Source of the DNA: Candidatus Daviesbacteria bacterium
GTDB lineage: Bacteria; Patescibacteriota; Microgenomatia; Daviesbacterales; UBA10151
NCBI GenBank assembly: GCA_030699125.1
Contig: JAUYKM010000006.1
Span: 1-33,155, forward strand
Direction: 5' to 3'
DNA length: 33,155 bases
Shown: one piece after another, positions 2 through 7,428 of the stretch
Numbering within the stretch: position 1 is the first letter of the stretch
Layout: each line of letters begins with the position of its first letter
Translations under genes and position numbers: made by a program
The notes under the pieces: model-generated
Seen by the model: only the letters and a program-made list of their open reading frames with translations
Database searches by the model: none
What the model was told of the DNA's origin: nothing

Positions 2-2488
2 ACTATATCCACCATTTCTTCTACCCCTGCCGGCAACTATACTATCTCAGTTAATGGCTCACCTTCTGCTGCTGCTAAAAATACCTGCACTCTCACTATT
101 CCCCCTCCCGGGTGCACACTTCCCACAGTAGATATTAAGGCCAATAGCTCTGACGGTCCTGTTAATATTGCTAATAACACTTCGGCAAATCTTACTTGGA
201 CTACTGGCAATTCTCCCACCTCATGTACTGCCTCCGGTGCCTGGTCAGGAGCAAAATCAGTCAGCGGAGGTTCTCAGTCATCTGGCAATCTCCCTGGACC
301 AAACAGCTATAATTTCACTATTACCTGTTCCAATACTTGTGGTTCCAATTCCGATGTAGTAACAATCAATGTCCCCTCACCGAGTACTAATTGCAGTTTT
401 GGCAGTCTCTCCAATCCGGACGGGATTTCCCCCAATCCTGTTCCCTACAACTCCTCCACCTCTACCTATTCTAATACTCAGATTAGCTGGAGCACCGCCT
501 CCTATAACAGCAGTAATGTCTACTATTATAATCCCGGCAGTTGTACTCTAAGTAATTGTCCGTCCAGCGGCTGGACTTTTATCACTTCTGCTCCCGCTGA
601 TGGTACCTGGGATTATGTCTGGAATCCCAACTCTTTTGGTCCCGCCCAAGGCTCTACTCACACCATTGGTATTACTGATTCCAACAATGTTTTAAGATGC
701 GTCAAAGATGTTACTTTTGGCTCCTCCACCCCTCCTCCAGCTTCTTCCAGCTGCACTGGTATTTCCGGACCAAATACCCTGCTTTTACAAGGCGGAAAAG
801 CCACAGGCACGTATGCTGCCAACTTTGGCGGTGATAGTACCAATTTAGTATTCCACTGGAGTGACAATCAAGGCAGTACTGATGATACAGTCGACAATGA
901 TGTGAATTGGACCTTCTATAATACCGGCTCCTATACCCTTTCTGCCACCTATTCCAATGCCACTGGTTCAGGCTCTTGCGGCTCAAAAAATATTCAGGTA
1001 GTCCAACCCAGTTCAATTTGTGCAGAATTTGATGTTACCCCAGATCCAACTTATGTTAATACAAATGCAATAATAAGACCTCTTGTTTCTAACTATTCTA
1101 TTATCTCCAGAATTGATGTTCGTTACTATAAATATCCCCAGCCAGCTGCTCCTCCATTTACAGAAAGTAATTGGCAATCAATAAAGACGCTTCAGGGTAC
1201 ACAACACTGTGTTAGCGGGCATGTAGTAGAATCCGATGGTGAACCTGATGAATTTATTTGTGATGTTTATGATCCAAATACTTTTGATTGGACTGAGAAT
1301 CAGAAAACTACTGATTGGAAAACACCTAATTACGAAGGATATTATTATTTAGGGATGGAGGTTTACGGTGCGGATGGTACTAAAATTGCCGGCTGGAACA
1401 GCGGTGATACCACAGACTGTACTGAGGTTATTCGTATTCGGGATGATAGTACCTGCATACAAAATAAACCTGTATACCCGGATAACCTTAACGCTTCTGT
1501 CATAAATGATGACGATGTACTGCTGCAATGGCAGATAAGAAATAGCAATGGTAGCGTAAACGACTCTGAACAAGCTTATATAAGCACTCAAGCAGGATTT
1601 ACCCCATCCTCCTCAAACAGGGTGGTTTCCCGTCTTAAAGCAGGCAGTAGTTTATCTGTTACAGATAGCTCTTCCACACTTTCCAATTTAAAAAATCCTG
1701 TCTTTTATAAAGTATCTGCTTTTAACAATGCTTCTCCTGGTGAATCTCCGTTCTCCTCCACTCAAGGTATGGCACCCTTACCTTTTGATACAGATACTTG
1801 TTCCTTAAGTAGTAGTCCAACAACAGCTACTAATTTTAATATCTCTGGTAGTACTTTTACCTGGAGGAAACCTTCTATTGCCTTTGCTACATATAGTGGA
1901 TGGAGAGTGGTAAATAATAATGGTTTAATCTTTGATGTCCCGGCTAGTGAGGTAACCGAAAGTTTTTATGACTCAAATAATAGGCAAATCACCTGGACCA
2001 TGCCCACTCTAATAGCAGGTACTTATTATATCCAGGCTTATGCCGTTTTATGTGATGGAAAAATGTATTTTGGACCAATCTCTAATACAGCTGTCTTAAG
2101 TACCTCAACTAGTGCTGCCTCAGCCCCCACCACAGCCCCATCAGGAGTTACTACCACCATGGGTGGAGGTTTTAAAGACCAACAACCTGTTATCACCAGC
2201 TGGACTGATACTAATACTAATGAAGCTGGTTTTCACCTTTATAGAAGTACAGAATCGTTAGATCCTGCAAAGAGAACAGCAGCTACAAATTATTCCCTTA
2301 ACAATGCTCTTTTTGAGAACCTGCCTGCCGGAACTTATTACCTGGCAGTTAAAGTGACTAATAATTGTGGGGTTGGCTGGTCAAATTATGTAAAAGTTGA
2401 TTTGACTTTGACCGTCAAGCCCTGGATTCAGACCACTGGCGGAGATGTCCATTCCAATGTTAGAATTAATACACCGGGAGGACCATGA
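2..2488 (+). CDS. Secreted/surface protein, Thr/Ser/Asn-rich with Ig/FN3-like repeats (5' truncated by window edge)
   Basis: Frame 2 is open without a stop from base 2 to the TGA at 2486-2488. The ATG at 902 in the ORF track is internal. Translation begins TISTISSTPAGNYTISVNGSPSAAAKNTC; an FN3-like stretch (DDVLLQWQIRNSNGS...VFYKVSAFNN) follows. Confidence 0.85.
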   Translation, partial: TISTISSTPAGNYTISVNGSPSAAAKNTCTLTIPPPGCTLPTVDIKANSSDGPVNIANNTSANLTWTTGNSPTSCTASGAWSGAKSVSGGSQSSGNLPGPNSYNFTITCSNTCGSNSDVVTINVPSPSTNCSFGSLSNPDGISPNPVPYNSSTSTYSNTQISWSTASYNSSNVYYYNPGSCTLSNCPSSGWTFITSAPADGTWDYVWNPNSFGPAQGSTHTIGITDSNNVLRCVKDVTFGSSTPPPASSSCTGISGPNTLLLQGGKATGTYAANFGGDSTNLVFHWSDNQGSTDDTVDNDVNWTFYNTGSYTLSATYSNATGSGSCGSKNIQVVQPSSICAEFDVTPDPTYVNTNAIIRPLVSNYSIISRIDVRYYKYPQPAAPPFTESNWQSIKTLQGTQHCVSGHVVESDGEPDEFICDVYDPNTFDWTENQKTTDWKTPNYEGYYYLGMEVYGADGTKIAGWNSGDTTDCTEVIRIRDDSTCIQNKPVYPDNLNASVINDDDVLLQWQIRNSNGSVNDSEQAYISTQAGFTPSSSNRVVSRLKAGSSLSVTDSSSTLSNLKNPVFYKVSAFNNASPGESPFSSTQGMAPLPFDTDTCSLSSSPTTATNFNISGSTFTWRKPSIAFATYSGWRVVNNNGLIFDVPASEVTESFYDSNNRQITWTMPTLIAGTYYIQAYAVLCDGKMYFGPISNTAVLSTSTSAASAPTTAPSGVTTTMGGGFKDQQPVITSWTDTNTNEAGFHLYRSTESLDPAKRTAATNYSLNNALFENLPAGTYYLAVKVTNNCGVGWSNYVKVDLTLTVKPWIQTTGGDVHSNVRINTPGGP

Positions 2489-4212
2489 TGGGAATTAGAA
2501 TCAAGCAACTGGAATTAAGAATTAAGGTCTTTTTAAGCTTTTTCATATTAGCTTTATTCTTTACTGCGACAGCAGGAGCTGTGCTCATTCTTTATTCTTT
2601 ATTCTATCACCCTACCTTTGCTCAAGTTCAAAGCTGCGGCTCAGTTACCACCCAGCCCAGGGCACAGGGACTGGTGTCCACACAAACTGTCACAGGCAAA
2701 TTTTATACTTCATCCGGGGGCTGTATTGTCGATGAAAGAGCTTCTTTTGTCTCATTCAGAATACCTGACTATGACAGATTAAAATCACTCTATTTTACTC
2801 AGGCTAAGGAAAGTGGTGCTTTAAAGAAAATTGCCATTACGGGTAATGCCACCCAGGGCAGTTTAAGTCTGACTACCAATACCGCAGCTCATATCAGTGG
2901 GAATATGAGCTTATCCGGCAATATCTCAGGTAGCGCCACCGGTATTATCTTTATTGACGGCAAACTGGATATTACCCAAAACTTCGCTTACGGCGGGGGA
3001 AATTACGGGGTAGTATTGGTGGTCAAAGGTAATGTGGTGATAGCTCCGACTGTCAACACGGTGAATGCGGTCATTATCTCCGAGGGGGTAATTTATACAG
3101 CCGGAGAATTTTGTTCCACCAGCTCCACCAACGCTCCTCAACTGACCATCAATGGCAGTCTTATTTCTCTTAATCCGGACAGCCGGATCAGGTTTTGCCG
3201 CAACCTGACAGACAACAGTCTGCCTGCTGAAATCATCAACCACCAACCAAAATATGTGGTCATTTTAAGAAATATCTTCTCGGAAAAGTTCAGAAAGTTT
3301 TCCGAAATTACCGGCACAGCTCTTCCAGCAACGTCTCCCTCTCCCACCACTCCTACTCCTACCCCAACTTCCACCCCAACTCCTACTCCTACCCCAACAA
3401 GCACTCCCACACCAGCCCCCACTTCTACTCCTACTAACTGTTCTGATAATGCAGGGGTAGTAACTTGCAACTATGCTGGTACTCAACAAACATGGGTTGT
3501 ACCAACTGGTGTAACTTCTATTAGTGTCGACGCCAAAGGTGCCCAAGGAAGTAATGGTAATCGAGGTGCAATTGGTGGAAAAGGGGCGCGTGTCATAGCA
3601 ACCATTAGTGTTACTGCAGGAGAGACTTTGTATATCTATGTAGGCGGACAGTCTCTTGGGAGGTCGGGTGGATATAATGGAGGAATGACAGGCGGCACAG
3701 ATCCATCAAGTGATCTTGCCGGAGGTGGCGGAGGTGCATCCGACATCCGTAAAGGCGGTACAGCGATTAATAATCGTGTTGTGATTGCGGGTGGCGGTGG
3801 TGGCGGCGGTTCGGAATGTTCCGCATGCTTAAACAGAGGAGGATCAGGCGGAGCTGGTGGCGACCCTCTAGGTAAGATTGGATCAAATGGAGCCGGAACT
3901 TATAGAGGATACGGCGGCGGTGGTGGTACTATGACTGGCGGCGGAAGCGGAGGTGCAAGCGGTGGGGGTGCTTCAACTGCAGGTTTTAGTCCTGTTAGTG
4001 CTGGTAGTGGTGGAACTGGAGGAAATGGCGCTGGCAACGGTGGCGGCGGTGGCGGCGGCGGTGGCGGCTATTATGGCGGTGGCGGCGGCGGTGGCGGTGA
4101 TAATGCCGGCAGTGCTGCTGGCGGTGGCGGTGGCGGTGGCGGATCCAGCTATGGTGATACATTTACCAGCGGCTATCAAAGTGGTAACGGTCAAATTATT
4201 ATCACATATTAG
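2485..4212 (+). CDS. Secreted protein: N-terminal TM segment, beta-rich domain, Pro/Thr linker, C-terminal ALK/LTK-like glycine-rich domain
   Basis: ATGA overlap with upstream CDS. Hydrophobic N-terminus VFLSFFILALFFTATAGAVLILYSLF; linker TPTPTPTSTPTPTPTPTSTPTPAPTSTPT; C-terminal WVVPTGVTSISVDAKGAQG...GGGGGASDIRKGG...NRVVIAGGGGGGG. Confidence 0.85.
   Translation: MMGIRIKQLELRIKVFLSFFILALFFTATAGAVLILYSLFYHPTFAQVQSCGSVTTQPRAQGLVSTQTVTGKFYTSSGGCIVDERASFVSFRIPDYDRLKSLYFTQAKESGALKKIAITGNATQGSLSLTTNTAAHISGNMSLSGNISGSATGIIFIDGKLDITQNFAYGGGNYGVVLVVKGNVVIAPTVNTVNAVIISEGVIYTAGEFCSTSSTNAPQLTINGSLISLNPDSRIRFCRNLTDNSLPAEIINHQPKYVVILRNIFSEKFRKFSEITGTALPATSPSPTTPTPTPTSTPTPTPTPTSTPTPAPTSTPTNCSDNAGVVTCNYAGTQQTWVVPTGVTSISVDAKGAQGSNGNRGAIGGKGARVIATISVTAGETLYIYVGGQSLGRSGGYNGGMTGGTDPSSDLAGGGGGASDIRKGGTAINNRVVIAGGGGGGGSECSACLNRGGSGGAGGDPLGKIGSNGAGTYRGYGGGGGTMTGGGSGGASGGGASTAGFSPVSAGSGGTGGNGAGNGGGGGGGGGGYYGGGGGGGGDNAGSAAGGGGGGGGSSYGDTFTSGYQSGNGQIIITY
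3337..3437 (+). repeat. Low-complexity (CC/A/T)ACT tract encoding Pro/Thr linker
   Basis: Tandem cctactcctaccccaacttccacc units. Confidence 0.8.
3718..4143 (+). repeat. GGY-rich low-complexity tract encoding polyglycine segments
   Basis: Runs of ggcggtggcggc encoding GGGGGGGGGG. Confidence 0.85.
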
Positions 4213-4232: not shown

Positions 4233-4261
4233 ATCTTTACTTCCCAAAATTTCTTTTTTGG
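4233..4261 (+). repeat. TA-flanking repeat R1
   Basis: atctttacttcccaaaatttcttttttgg. Confidence 0.75.
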
Positions 4262-4280
4262 ATTAGAAATGGGAGTGAGA

Positions 4281-4952
4281 TTACGGTTTGATTTTAAGCA
4301 GCAGATTGCGGGAAAGATCCTGGTAGAATTTTACAAATGCCTCTCTGTTAAAAGGGGTATGCATTTTAGGAAAGGTTTTAAACTGTCCCACATCAGCAAT
4401 AACATTGGCAAAATATAACTCGGACAGTCCGGTGTCTTTTTGTTTGGTTTTCTCAAACATTTCATCAAAGCTTAACTCTGTTTGGGTGAAGATCATATAA
4501 AGGTCAATATAATCTTTTGGCTCAAGCCTGCCAAATACTGCCAGAATTTTATTCGTTGTAATATTAATAAGTGAATCAACTGCAATATTATCAACATGGG
4601 TAATTTCCCCGAAGTGAACCGGTTGTTCTTGTACAACATCAATTTTTTGCCTCCATCTATCTTTAGTATTTTCCAGATAAATCTCGCTGTATGTTTGAGA
4701 TCTTGCTTGGATACTCATTGTCGCATTGGTTTTATCCGCAATTTCCTGTATGGTAGTACGGAGTACCAAAGAGTCAAACGGCGAAAGGCTAAAAAAGTCC
4801 AAATCCTGACTTTCCCTATGAGCCAGATAAAAAGCAGCTAAACAGGTTCCTCCGGTGAAGAAAAACGTTTTAGCAAATTCTGAAGCAAAAAAAAGCTGCA
4901 AAATAGTAATCTGATGAGGTAGTAAAATTGAATTATCTTTAAGGCTGTACAT
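4281..4952 (-). CDS. AbiEii/AbiGii-type nucleotidyltransferase (toxin-like)
   Basis: FFFTGGTCLAAFYLAHRESQDLDFFSLSPF matches the AbiEii-type GG...R.S.DLDFF core. Internal Met at 4952 (MYSLKDNSILL) is favoured because the longer ORF overlaps the partner gene. Confidence 0.75.
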   Translation of the reverse strand: MYSLKDNSILLPHQITILQLFFASEFAKTFFFTGGTCLAAFYLAHRESQDLDFFSLSPFDSLVLRTTIQEIADKTNATMSIQARSQTYSEIYLENTKDRWRQKIDVVQEQPVHFGEITHVDNIAVDSLINITTNKILAVFGRLEPKDYIDLYMIFTQTELSFDEMFEKTKQKDTGLSELYFANVIADVGQFKTFPKMHTPFNREAFVKFYQDLSRNLLLKIKP

Positions 4953-5193
4953 GATATCCCCAAACCTGTAATGCTCTTTGCCAGGCGCTTTTAACAGTTT
5001 TGGGTAAGGATAACCTGGAAAAGTAACGTACAATATCAGAAACTGTCAGATATTTGAAAATGTCTTTATAGTGTGCATGGGTCAGAATACGTCCAATCAG
5101 CCACCTTTTTTCCACCTCATTTTTCCCCTTGAGGATGGCATGAATTTGTGCATCAGTCAGATCATAATCCCAAAGAAAATATGGTGTTTTCAT
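4939..5193 (-). CDS. Small partner of the AbiEii-like NTase (DUF6922-like, putative antitoxin)
   Basis: 84 aa (LWDYDLTDAQIHAILKG...RWLIGRILTHAHYKDIFKYLTVSDI), directly upstream of and overlapping the NTase start. Confidence 0.6.
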   Translation of the reverse strand: MKTPYFLWDYDLTDAQIHAILKGKNEVEKRWLIGRILTHAHYKDIFKYLTVSDIVRYFSRLSLPKTVKSAWQRALQVWGYHVQP

Positions 5194-5289
5194 ATCTATA
5201 ATTGTATCACATGCACATAAATAGTTGACCTTCCAATTCCTTCCTAAAATAATTCCCAGTTTTCAGTTGCCAATTTAGAAGCCTACCTT

Positions 5290-5314
5290 TTATTTCCCAA
5301 AATTTCGCTTTTGG
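5290..5314 (+). repeat. TA-flanking repeat R2
   Basis: ttatttcccaaaatttcgcttttgg. Confidence 0.7.
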
Positions 5315-5383
5315 TTTTGATAATTAAAACCCCGCAAGGCTAAACCTTGTACATCTGCTAGAAACCACTTATCCTTAAAATAT

Positions 5384-5617
5384 ATGACCAAAGTTGTCTA
5401 TTACATAACTACCAATAAAGAAAATCCAGTAAGTGATTTTTTAGATAGTCTAACTTCTTCTCAGCAAGCTAAAATATTACGCATAATTTTTTATTATGTT
5501 AATCTTCAACAGGATTCTGTTTTATTACTTCATGGTTTTATGAAAAAATCACAAAAGACTCCTGTTAAAGAAATAGAAAATGCACTTTACCGTCTTAGAG
5601 ATTGGTTAAGTGAATAA
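5384..5617 (+). CDS. RelE/HigB (Gp49-like) toxin family protein, apparently internally shortened
   Basis: N-terminal VVYYITTNKENPVSDFLDSLTSSQQAKILR and C-terminal VLLLHGFMKKSQKTPVKEIENALYRLRDWL match the family ends; the middle is missing. Confidence 0.65.
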   Translation: MTKVVYYITTNKENPVSDFLDSLTSSQQAKILRIIFYYVNLQQDSVLLLHGFMKKSQKTPVKEIENALYRLRDWLSE

Positions 5618-5645
5618 AAACTATCTATCTACACAAAAAGCTATC

Positions 5646-5674
5646 TTGACAAATGATATCATAAATGATATCAT
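5646..5674 (+). promoter_or_regulatory. HigA-like promoter TTGACA-N17-TATCAT with two ATGATATCAT palindromes; ATG 9 nt later
   Basis: Palindromes at 5653-5662 and 5665-5674. Confidence 0.75.
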
Positions 5675-5683
5675 TTTTGTATA

Positions 5684-5971
5684 ATGAAAAACAGATTAAT
5701 TTATACATTCCAAGAGGATCTTGCCAAAAGACTTAAAAATCCCAAGTTTAAAAAAGCTTGGGATGAATCTGAAGTAGAGTATCAGCTTGCTATCAAATTA
5801 ATAGAAACAAGATTGAAAAGAAAAATGTCTCAAAGAGAGCTTGCCAAGAAGGTGAGGACATCTCAAGCTGCAATCTCAAGAATTGAAGGAATGAACGGAA
5901 ACCCATCCTTACATCTACTTAAAAGGATTGCCCAGGCTCTGGGGGAAAAACTGCAAATTTCTTTATCTTAG
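5684..5971 (+). CDS. XRE/HigA-like antitoxin
   Basis: HTH RKMSQRELAKKVRTSQAAISRIEGMNGNPSLHLLKRIAQALG. Confidence 0.85.
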   Translation: MKNRLIYTFQEDLAKRLKNPKFKKAWDESEVEYQLAIKLIETRLKRKMSQRELAKKVRTSQAAISRIEGMNGNPSLHLLKRIAQALGEKLQISLS

Positions 5972-5991
5972 CCGCCAAAAAGTAAAGCGTC

Positions 5992-6016
5992 ACTTCCCAA
6001 AATTTCTTTTTTGGGG
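5992..6016 (+). repeat. TA-flanking repeat R3
   Basis: acttcccaaaatttcttttttgggg. Confidence 0.75.
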
Positions 6017-6053
6017 TTGACAAGTATGACGAAAATATGTAGTATTGTCATAC
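6017..6053 (+). promoter_or_regulatory. VapB-like promoter TTGACA-N17-TAGTAT inside inverted repeat GTATGAC/GTCATAC
   Basis: Inverted repeat arms at 6024-6030 and 6047-6053; ATG at 6055. Confidence 0.7.
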
Positions 6054-6054
6054 C

Positions 6055-6303
6055 ATGCAACAGGTTACAGTCGGTACTAAATATCAAATAGTCATCCCTA
6101 AAGAAGTCAGAAAAAAGGTTTTAGGTTTAAAACCAGGCACCAAAGTTGGCATATATGCAACTGATAAATCTTCTATCAGAATAGATGCTCAACCAAAAAG
6201 TTGGATAGATCGTACCCGTGGGATGATGAAAGAAGCGTGGAAGGATATTAATACTACAAAATACCTCGAGGATCTAAGGAATGAATGGGAACATAAATCA
6301 TAA
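6055..6303 (+). CDS. AbrB/SpoVT-type antitoxin (VapB-like)
   Basis: TVGTKYQIVIPKEVRKKVLGLKPGTKVGI. Confidence 0.85.
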   Translation: MQQVTVGTKYQIVIPKEVRKKVLGLKPGTKVGIYATDKSSIRIDAQPKSWIDRTRGMMKEAWKDINTTKYLEDLRNEWEHKS

Positions 6304-6715
6304 ATTGGTTGCTCTGGATAGTAATATTTTTATCTATAACCTTGAAGAAAATCTCGAGTTTGTAAAGTTCACAGACATAATTTTTCAAAACTTAAGTGCT
6401 AATAAACTAAAAGCTACTACAAGCATTCTTAGTCTAACTGAAATTTTATCCTACCCAAAAACAGAGAGTGTAGTTAAAGAAATTACCAGTGATTTTTTTA
6501 GTACACCCAATCTTTTAGTTTTAGAAGTTAATCGCGAGGTAGCACTGGAGGCAGCACGGATTAGAAGAAAATATGCCTATCGTTTACCAGATTCAATTCA
6601 GCTTGCCACTGCTTTAGTTACAAAAGCTACAGCTTTTATCACCAATGATTCCAGATTAAAACGCTTTAAAGAACTCAAAATCATCCTAACAAAGGATCTG
6701 ACAATCGAGAGCTGA
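6281..6715 (+). CDS. PIN-domain toxin (VapC-like)
   Basis: VALDSNIFIYNLE, TEIL, DSIQLATALVTKATAFITNDSRLKRF; overlaps the AbrB-like gene. Confidence 0.85.
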   Translation: MNGNINHKLVALDSNIFIYNLEENLEFVKFTDIIFQNLSANKLKATTSILSLTEILSYPKTESVVKEITSDFFSTPNLLVLEVNREVALEAARIRRKYAYRLPDSIQLATALVTKATAFITNDSRLKRFKELKIILTKDLTIES

Positions 6716-6716
6716 T

Positions 6717-6746
6717 ATCTTTACTTCCCAAAGTTGCGCTTCTGAG
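6717..6746 (+). repeat. TA-flanking repeat R4, overlapping the uppS 3' end
   Basis: atctttacttcccaaagttgcgcttctgag. Confidence 0.6.
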
Positions 6747-7428
6747 ACTGATACCAGCTAATAGCTTTTTTAAGTTCTTTTCCGTCAAAATCCGGCCATA
6801 AAGTTTTGGTAAAGTATAACTCAGAGTAGGCTGTCTGCCAGAGCAGAAAATTGGACATCCTAACCCTTCCTCCGGTTCTAATCACCAGTTCCGGATCTGC
6901 CTGACCATTAGTGTATAGGTGTTTTTCAATCAGTTTTTCATTAATTTTATCTACTTCCACCCCTTCTTTAACCATTTCCTTAATTGCCTCCACCAACTCC
7001 TTTTTACTGCCGTAATTTAGGGCAATATTAAGCTTAATTGATTCATTTTTAATATAAGTATTCCTGATCTCACCAATCAGTCTTTTGATCATACCCGGCA
7101 AACCTTGCAGCTCTCCTAAAACACTGATCTTAACCCCATTAGACATCAACCTCTTTAGCTTACTCTGATAAGCTATTCTCATTAAATTGAACAATCCTAT
7201 TACTTCCCTTTTGGCCCGTTCTCTAATATTCTCAGTGGACAGTGCATAAACAGTGATCGTATCCACACCTAATTTTTCTGCCTCCCCTACCACCTTATCT
7301 AAACTTTCCACCCCGGCTTCATGGCCTTTTAAATCAGGCAAACCACGCTTTCTGGCCCACCTACGGTTGCCATCCATAATAATGGCAATATGGGAAGGGA
7401 TATTTGATTTATCTAATCCAGTATCCAT
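6721..7428 (-). CDS. uppS: Isoprenyl (undecaprenyl) diphosphate synthase
   Basis: PSHIAIIMDGNRRWARKRGLPDLKGHEAG; RTGGRVRMSNFLLWQTAYSELYFT. Confidence 0.93.
   Translation of the reverse strand: MDTGLDKSNIPSHIAIIMDGNRRWARKRGLPDLKGHEAGVESLDKVVGEAEKLGVDTITVYALSTENIRERAKREVIGLFNLMRIAYQSKLKRLMSNGVKISVLGELQGLPGMIKRLIGEIRNTYIKNESIKLNIALNYGSKKELVEAIKEMVKEGVEVDKINEKLIEKHLYTNGQADPELVIRTGGRVRMSNFLLWQTAYSELYFTKTLWPDFDGKELKKAISWYQSQKRNFGK

Follow-up and report, generated by a model that had tools for sequence, protein, structure and literature searches.

The closest known system to the locus described here is that of restriction-modification genes inserted with long target duplication. Nobusato, Kobayashi and colleagues are said to have reported such insertions of restriction-modification genes in Gene in 2000. 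The same mode of insertion, as proposed for restriction-modification genes, is described in PMC1643837 and PMC3031569. As in that system, the present locus shows selfish addiction-type gene pairs that have no recombinase of their own and lie between long, variable direct repeats of the target sequence, and a single-copy empty allele occurs in about 25 relatives, all of them at the family level. On the other hand, duplicates of a resident target should be identical at birth, whereas the copies here differ mostly at synonymous positions and exist in three versions; the modules are toxin-antitoxin (TA) pairs, the repeats are mostly the ends of housekeeping genes, and one gene end has been used repeatedly, giving an array.

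SCC elements and other islands restore the 3' end of the gene at which they insert, for example rlmH, tRNA, trmE, or dusA. The resemblance of the present array to SCC lies in insertion at the 3' end of a conserved gene, restoration of that end, and tandem arrays delimited by copies of it; unlike SCC, the array has no recombinase and cassettes of only 0.7-1 kb, and there are many target genes with repeats of unfixed length instead of one fixed att site. The dif (pdif) modules of Acinetobacter plasmids are likewise small and tandem, include many TA pairs, and are delimited by short sites without a recombinase of their own, but those sites are fixed 28-bp XerC/XerD sites, whereas the delimiter here is a coding gene end, present in one orientation and specific to the locus. 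Integron cassette arrays have IntI and attC sites. The present array resembles them as a series of small, often TA-bearing cassettes that appears to grow at one end, but the TA genes seem to have their own promoters, abiE is opposite in orientation to the other two pairs, neither IntI nor an attC-type site was recognised, with no integrase seen among those ORFs of the array that were inspected, and a gene end serves as the delimiter. The likeness to SCC arrays, dif modules, and integron cassettes would seem to be one of outcome, not of machinery. Word searches of the literature returned no paper describing a gene-end insertion pattern for TA pairs.

The uppS array and its genes

The window is a stretch of 33,155 nucleotides from a Candidatus Daviesbacteria bacterium (GCA_030699125.1, contig JAUYKM010000006.1), in which a first-pass annotation had noted four copies of a repeat of about 25 nt at the boundaries of three TA modules. 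All four copies were recovered, three by a pattern search allowing up to 3 mismatches (4239-4261, exact; 5292-5314, 3 mismatches; 5992-6014, exact), for which the chance expectation was 0.00 in 100 shuffles, and the fourth at 6717 ff. The same search across the whole genome (1.13 Mb in 19 contigs) gave these three, R1-R3, as its sole matches at that threshold. Two candidate explanations were rejected: a chance origin, by the shuffles and by reversed-pattern controls, and a genome-wide repeat family, by the lack of further copies in the genome. R1 and R4 both carry ATCTTTACTTCCCAAA, as had been said, and R4 diverges past it, with 5 differences in 21 coding nt, since this copy, on the minus strand, codes for the UppS end itself.

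On the minus strand, the repeat spells the final 7-10 codons of uppS. In R4 these codons form the functional end of the intact gene. The other three copies, R1-R3, are uppS ends in displaced positions, each in frame with a stop codon, (YQN)QKRNFGK-stop, and each marking the uppS-distal edge of one cassette (vapBC-, higBA-, or abiE-like). The first-pass description needs adjusting in that the functional unit reads on the minus strand and R2 is longer, at 33 nt. The features of the locus are as follows.

2485-4212, plus strand: convergent glycine-rich surface-type gene (PF12810 match)
4237-4260, minus strand: R1, displaced uppS end, CAAAAAAGAAATTTTGGGAAGTAA, QKRNFGK-stop; 5 synonymous, 0 nonsynonymous differences
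4261-5289, minus strand: cassette 3, 84-aa partner ORF (4939-5193) and AbiEii-like nucleotidyltransferase ORF (4281-5033; PF08843, E 5.5e-17)
5290-5322, minus strand: R2, displaced uppS end, TATCAAAACCAAAAGCGAAATTTTGGGAAATAA, YQNQKRNFGK-stop; 6 synonymous, 2 nonsynonymous differences from the uppS end
5323-5989, plus strand: cassette 2, higBA-like, Gp49/HigB-like ORF (5384-5617, 77 aa; PF05973, E 3.3e-8) and HTH antitoxin (5684-5971; PF01381, E 2.2e-12)
5990-6013, minus strand: R3, displaced uppS end, CAAAAAAGAAATTTTGGGAAGTGA, QKRNFGK-stop; 5 synonymous, 0 nonsynonymous differences from R4
6014-6720, plus strand: cassette 1, predicted VapBC-like pair, MazE/AbrB-type antitoxin (6055-6303; PF04014, E 2.3e-11) and PIN toxin (6281-6715; PF01850, E 1.8e-11)
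6721-6744, minus strand: R4, current uppS 3' end, CAGAAGCGCAACTTTGGGAAGTAA, QKRNFGK-stop; C-terminus type conserved in family relatives
6721-7428, minus strand: uppS, undecaprenyl diphosphate synthase, an essential cell-wall gene and the anchor of the array (PF01255, E 2.2e-75; TIGR00055)

R1 and R3 have identical coding nucleotides, and three versions of the uppS end are present at this one locus. R1, which adjoins the ancestral neighbour, is read as the oldest end. The first-pass module boundaries stand, the modules being an AbiEii (PF08843) pair, a Gp49/HigB-like ORF with HTH_3, and MazE/AbrB with PIN. Only TA genes lie between the repeat copies and no recombinase was found within or near the array; three PF00589 proteins are encoded in the genome, all on other contigs. 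In cassette 1, the antitoxin and PIN toxin genes are adjacent and overlapping, as in VapBC pairs, a promoter-like TTGACA-17-TAGTAT occurs at 6017-6045, and only a few nt separate the stop codons of vapC and uppS. In cassette 2, the HigB-like ORF matches the Gp49 profile at positions 46-89 of 90, in the C-terminal half only; this toxin is possibly shortened and may be internally deleted and dead, with the antitoxin retained. The 84-aa partner ORF of cassette 3 has no family match in Pfam, NCBIfam, or PADLOC. Similar ORFs of 66-87 aa, with a W-D-Y-D-like start, are found upstream of AbiEii-type toxins in the window and at L045, L062, L211, L230, L231, L232, L234, and L236, the L062 copy having no Pfam match; these tiny ORFs are possibly an undescribed antitoxin family.

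The uppS end in relatives

The region downstream of uppS was fetched for those family relatives in which uppS was found. The surface-type gene is the usual direct neighbour of uppS there, a compositionally similar gene following uppS in most of them, and QKRNFGK or a close variant is the UppS C-terminus across these relatives; in several genomes, the pattern search likewise located exact copies, or copies with 1 mismatch, at the end of uppS. In about 25 of these relatives, which are related at the family level only, nothing separates uppS from the surface-type gene and there is a single end, the empty state of the site. In three others, one cassette (VapBC, AAA/DUF4143, or Phd-VapC) is present, with one displaced uppS end beyond it. 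G006 reads uppS, VapBC, displaced end GAAAAGAGAAATTTTGGGAAATAA, and surface gene, G044 reads uppS, AAA/DUF4143 gene, displaced end TCAAAAAAAACTTCGGGAGGTAG, and surface gene, and G031 reads uppS, Phd/VapC, and a longer displaced uppS tail of ~48 nt. These three and the window ranked top when each uppS tail was aligned to its own downstream region, and a uppS-end profile search found G031, the window, and G006, the G044 copy being weak (E 2.3). The earlier view of a cassette-like array is supported with respect to the boundary repeats and the single-copy empty sites, but the repeats are uppS 3' ends rather than generic spacers, and growth was probably by end swapping rather than by the recombination between equal repeats that the first pass envisaged.

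In two further relatives, G003 and G025, uppS is followed by decayed AbiE-like genes, with no recognisable second end. Near-matches to the repeat pattern lie away from that genome's uppS on G009:C44 and inside uppS on G004:C26. A scan of genome contigs with UppS returned distant relatives only (best 53% identity), and a uppS-end search across other families of the class gave no clear additional case.

Displaced ends and flanking repeats at other loci

The gene gap (GAPDH) is a second anchor. Displaced gap tails accompany Phd/ParE pairs (this genome and G021), a VapBC pair (G013), and a ParE pair (G017), the G017 tail having an internal stop; in G004, G020, and G024, TA pairs follow gap with no visible tail. 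The displaced tail of G013 differs from the current gap end and shows the GKSS-stop end and radical-SAM-like neighbour that are found after the first gap copy of G017, which indicates that the old end stayed with the old neighbour. The gap locus of this genome (L281, G000:C15:3000-19000) is itself a second array, consisting of Phd/ParE, a displaced gap tail, and another ParE-type toxin. In G017 (L284, G017:C6), two similar gap genes flank an insert of two genes, one radical-SAM-like and the other for a small exported-type protein; the ParE cassette and gap tail come next, making this a whole-gene version of the gene-end pattern.

The 1.5 kb on either side of PIN, AbiEii, and ParE toxins were compared across the family and class, counting direct repeats that scored at least 38 and did not lie inside one ORF. 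With this threshold, set after a first look, and a non-random sample of best-scoring hits, mostly one per genome, flanking direct repeats were found at 24 of 74 TA loci (PIN 6/25, AbiEii 10/23, ParE 8/26), compared with 8 of 211 random positions and 1 of 27 uppS-centred ones (Fisher p ~7e-10, TA loci versus random positions). Some of the repeats at random positions are intragenic, belonging to surface proteins. Two thirds of the TA loci have no such repeats. Each locus has its own repeat, in most cases the adjacent gene's 3' end and occasionally the 5' end (a thioredoxin gene in L198), and the same TA families are found at many gene ends whose repeats, 23-136 nt long, are unrelated. Repeat length is 21-33 nt and ~48 nt at uppS, 62-80 nt at gap, and up to 136 nt elsewhere, a variability expected of homology rather than of a fixed att site. 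A phylum-wide AbiEii sample gave weaker repeats at 4 of 25 loci. Outside the phylum, long flanking direct repeats were seen at 4 of 23 PIN loci, a count that stands without a random background from those genomes; the PIN toxin loci L301, L312, L314, and L299 there have direct repeats of 43-198 nt.

Intact and displaced copies were further compared codon by codon for 13 gene-end pairs, restricted by choice to clear gene ends and not all independent (R1 and R3 share their coding nucleotides), giving 83 synonymous and 17 nonsynonymous differences where site counts predict a synonymous share of 0.19 (p ~1e-43). The repeats of L255, L219, L236, and L258 were left out of this set, not being simple gene-end pairs; a wider, less clean set that includes them gave 119 synonymous and 95 nonsynonymous differences (dS 0.62, dN 0.13). 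A decaying duplication should give mostly nonsynonymous change in the displaced copy and the opposite was seen, so the copies most likely come from different functional genes, their ends stemming from different lineages and joined by recombination.

Origin of the array and its alternatives

The in-frame uppS ends, their mostly synonymous differences, the relatives with a single cassette or an empty site, and the same architecture at other gene ends are all directly observed. Because the repeat is the uppS 3' end, R4 is functional, and the other copies are different functional versions, the array points to growth at the uppS end by gene-end swapping, and we consider it probable that the three integrase-free TA cassettes were built by serial, additive insertion at the uppS 3' end. 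From these data we infer the order of insertion, a step of incoming DNA, and a recombination pathway. DNA arriving from a related bacterium would carry a TA pair behind a uppS 3' end; with the uppS end as its anchor, recombination would fuse the foreign end to the resident gene, keeping uppS whole, and the resident end would be displaced to the far side of the cassette. Three such rounds would give uppS(R4)-vapBC-R3-higBA-R2-abiE-R1-old neighbour, in which the newest cassette adjoins uppS and R1-R3 preserve the ends that uppS had before. Two routes would lead to this product alike, namely single crossover of a circle and homology on one side combined with end joining. The account starts from a donor end already joined to a TA pair, the first joining lying outside it. 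The presence of a ComEC-type gene in the genome counts in favour of this account.

Some findings count against additive recombination. RecA normally needs more than the 21-33 nt of diverged uppS sequence available here, and PF00154 has no match in this genome, rated 100% complete, whereas all 14 control genomes match, although an incomplete draft or a shortcoming of the model may account for the missing match. Neither a circle nor a donor fragment was seen as an intermediate, and two thirds of the TA loci lack such repeats. The uppS-type copies in several cases start near the same codon, as a site-specific system would also produce.

Such a system, in which a trans-acting tyrosine or serine recombinase would use the uppS 3' end as attB for cassettes with matching attP, as for SCC at rlmH or dif modules, typically restores gene ends and forms tandem arrays. 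The short inverted repeat of the core, CCAAAA-AAGAAA-TTTTGG, the nearly coinciding boundaries of R1, R3, G006, and G044, and the three PF00589 proteins of the genome are consistent with it. We nevertheless regard it as unlikely, as the absence of a recombinase from the array and the varying length and sequence of the repeats between loci, with unrelated repeats at the many gene ends used by the same TA families and differing lengths even within gap, speak against one integrase; R4, the current end, is not palindromic, and the PF00589 genes lie on other contigs. Strict long target duplication, whereby a staggered break at the uppS end would be filled in and the resident end duplicated around the TA pair, matches the architecture and variable repeat length known for restriction-modification genes (PMC1643837, PMC3031569), but copies identical at birth followed by neutral decay would hardly give the observed excess of synonymous differences or three coexisting versions of the end at one locus, which makes this a distinctly improbable explanation.

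The repeats might alternatively be functional elements, shared terminators or regulators that merely resemble the uppS end, and a shared terminator had been one of the first-pass readings, along with hairpins at R1-R3. R3 can indeed fold into a reasonably stable hairpin (-13.9 kcal/mol, z -3.5), but R1 and R2 fold weakly, as does R4, which has no hairpin on the plus strand, and a terminator scan found no terminator-like site at any copy, so the shared-terminator reading is not supported. Such elements would leave unexplained why the copies match the uppS coding sequence in frame, down to the stop codon, and relatives with a single copy do without them; we give this explanation very little credence.

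It has long been asked how TA pairs on chromosomes move in the absence of transposases. The same pattern behind other housekeeping genes in relatives suggests a simple, recombinase-free way for TA pairs to spread. More tentatively, and with a likelihood we would place a little short of even, TA pairs in Microgenomates-type Patescibacteria, and probably in other bacteria, may spread largely as gene-end cassettes, in which a foreign housekeeping-gene end travels with a TA pair and enters by short-homology recombination without a recombinase of its own. If so, essential gene ends would serve as anchors, and arrays would be a stack of former gene ends. Gene-end-anchored recombination offers a testable route and would explain why TA pairs often lie just behind housekeeping genes. 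The scars can be read here, with the new gene end to one side of a cassette and its predecessor to the other, and about one third of the sampled TA loci have flanking repeats; displaced gene ends may be a simple signature for finding more mobile cassettes. In G002 (L355) and G049 (L356), gap is followed after 145-199 nt by a second gap tail, and the interval has no TA genes; these tails are perhaps remnants of lost cassettes.
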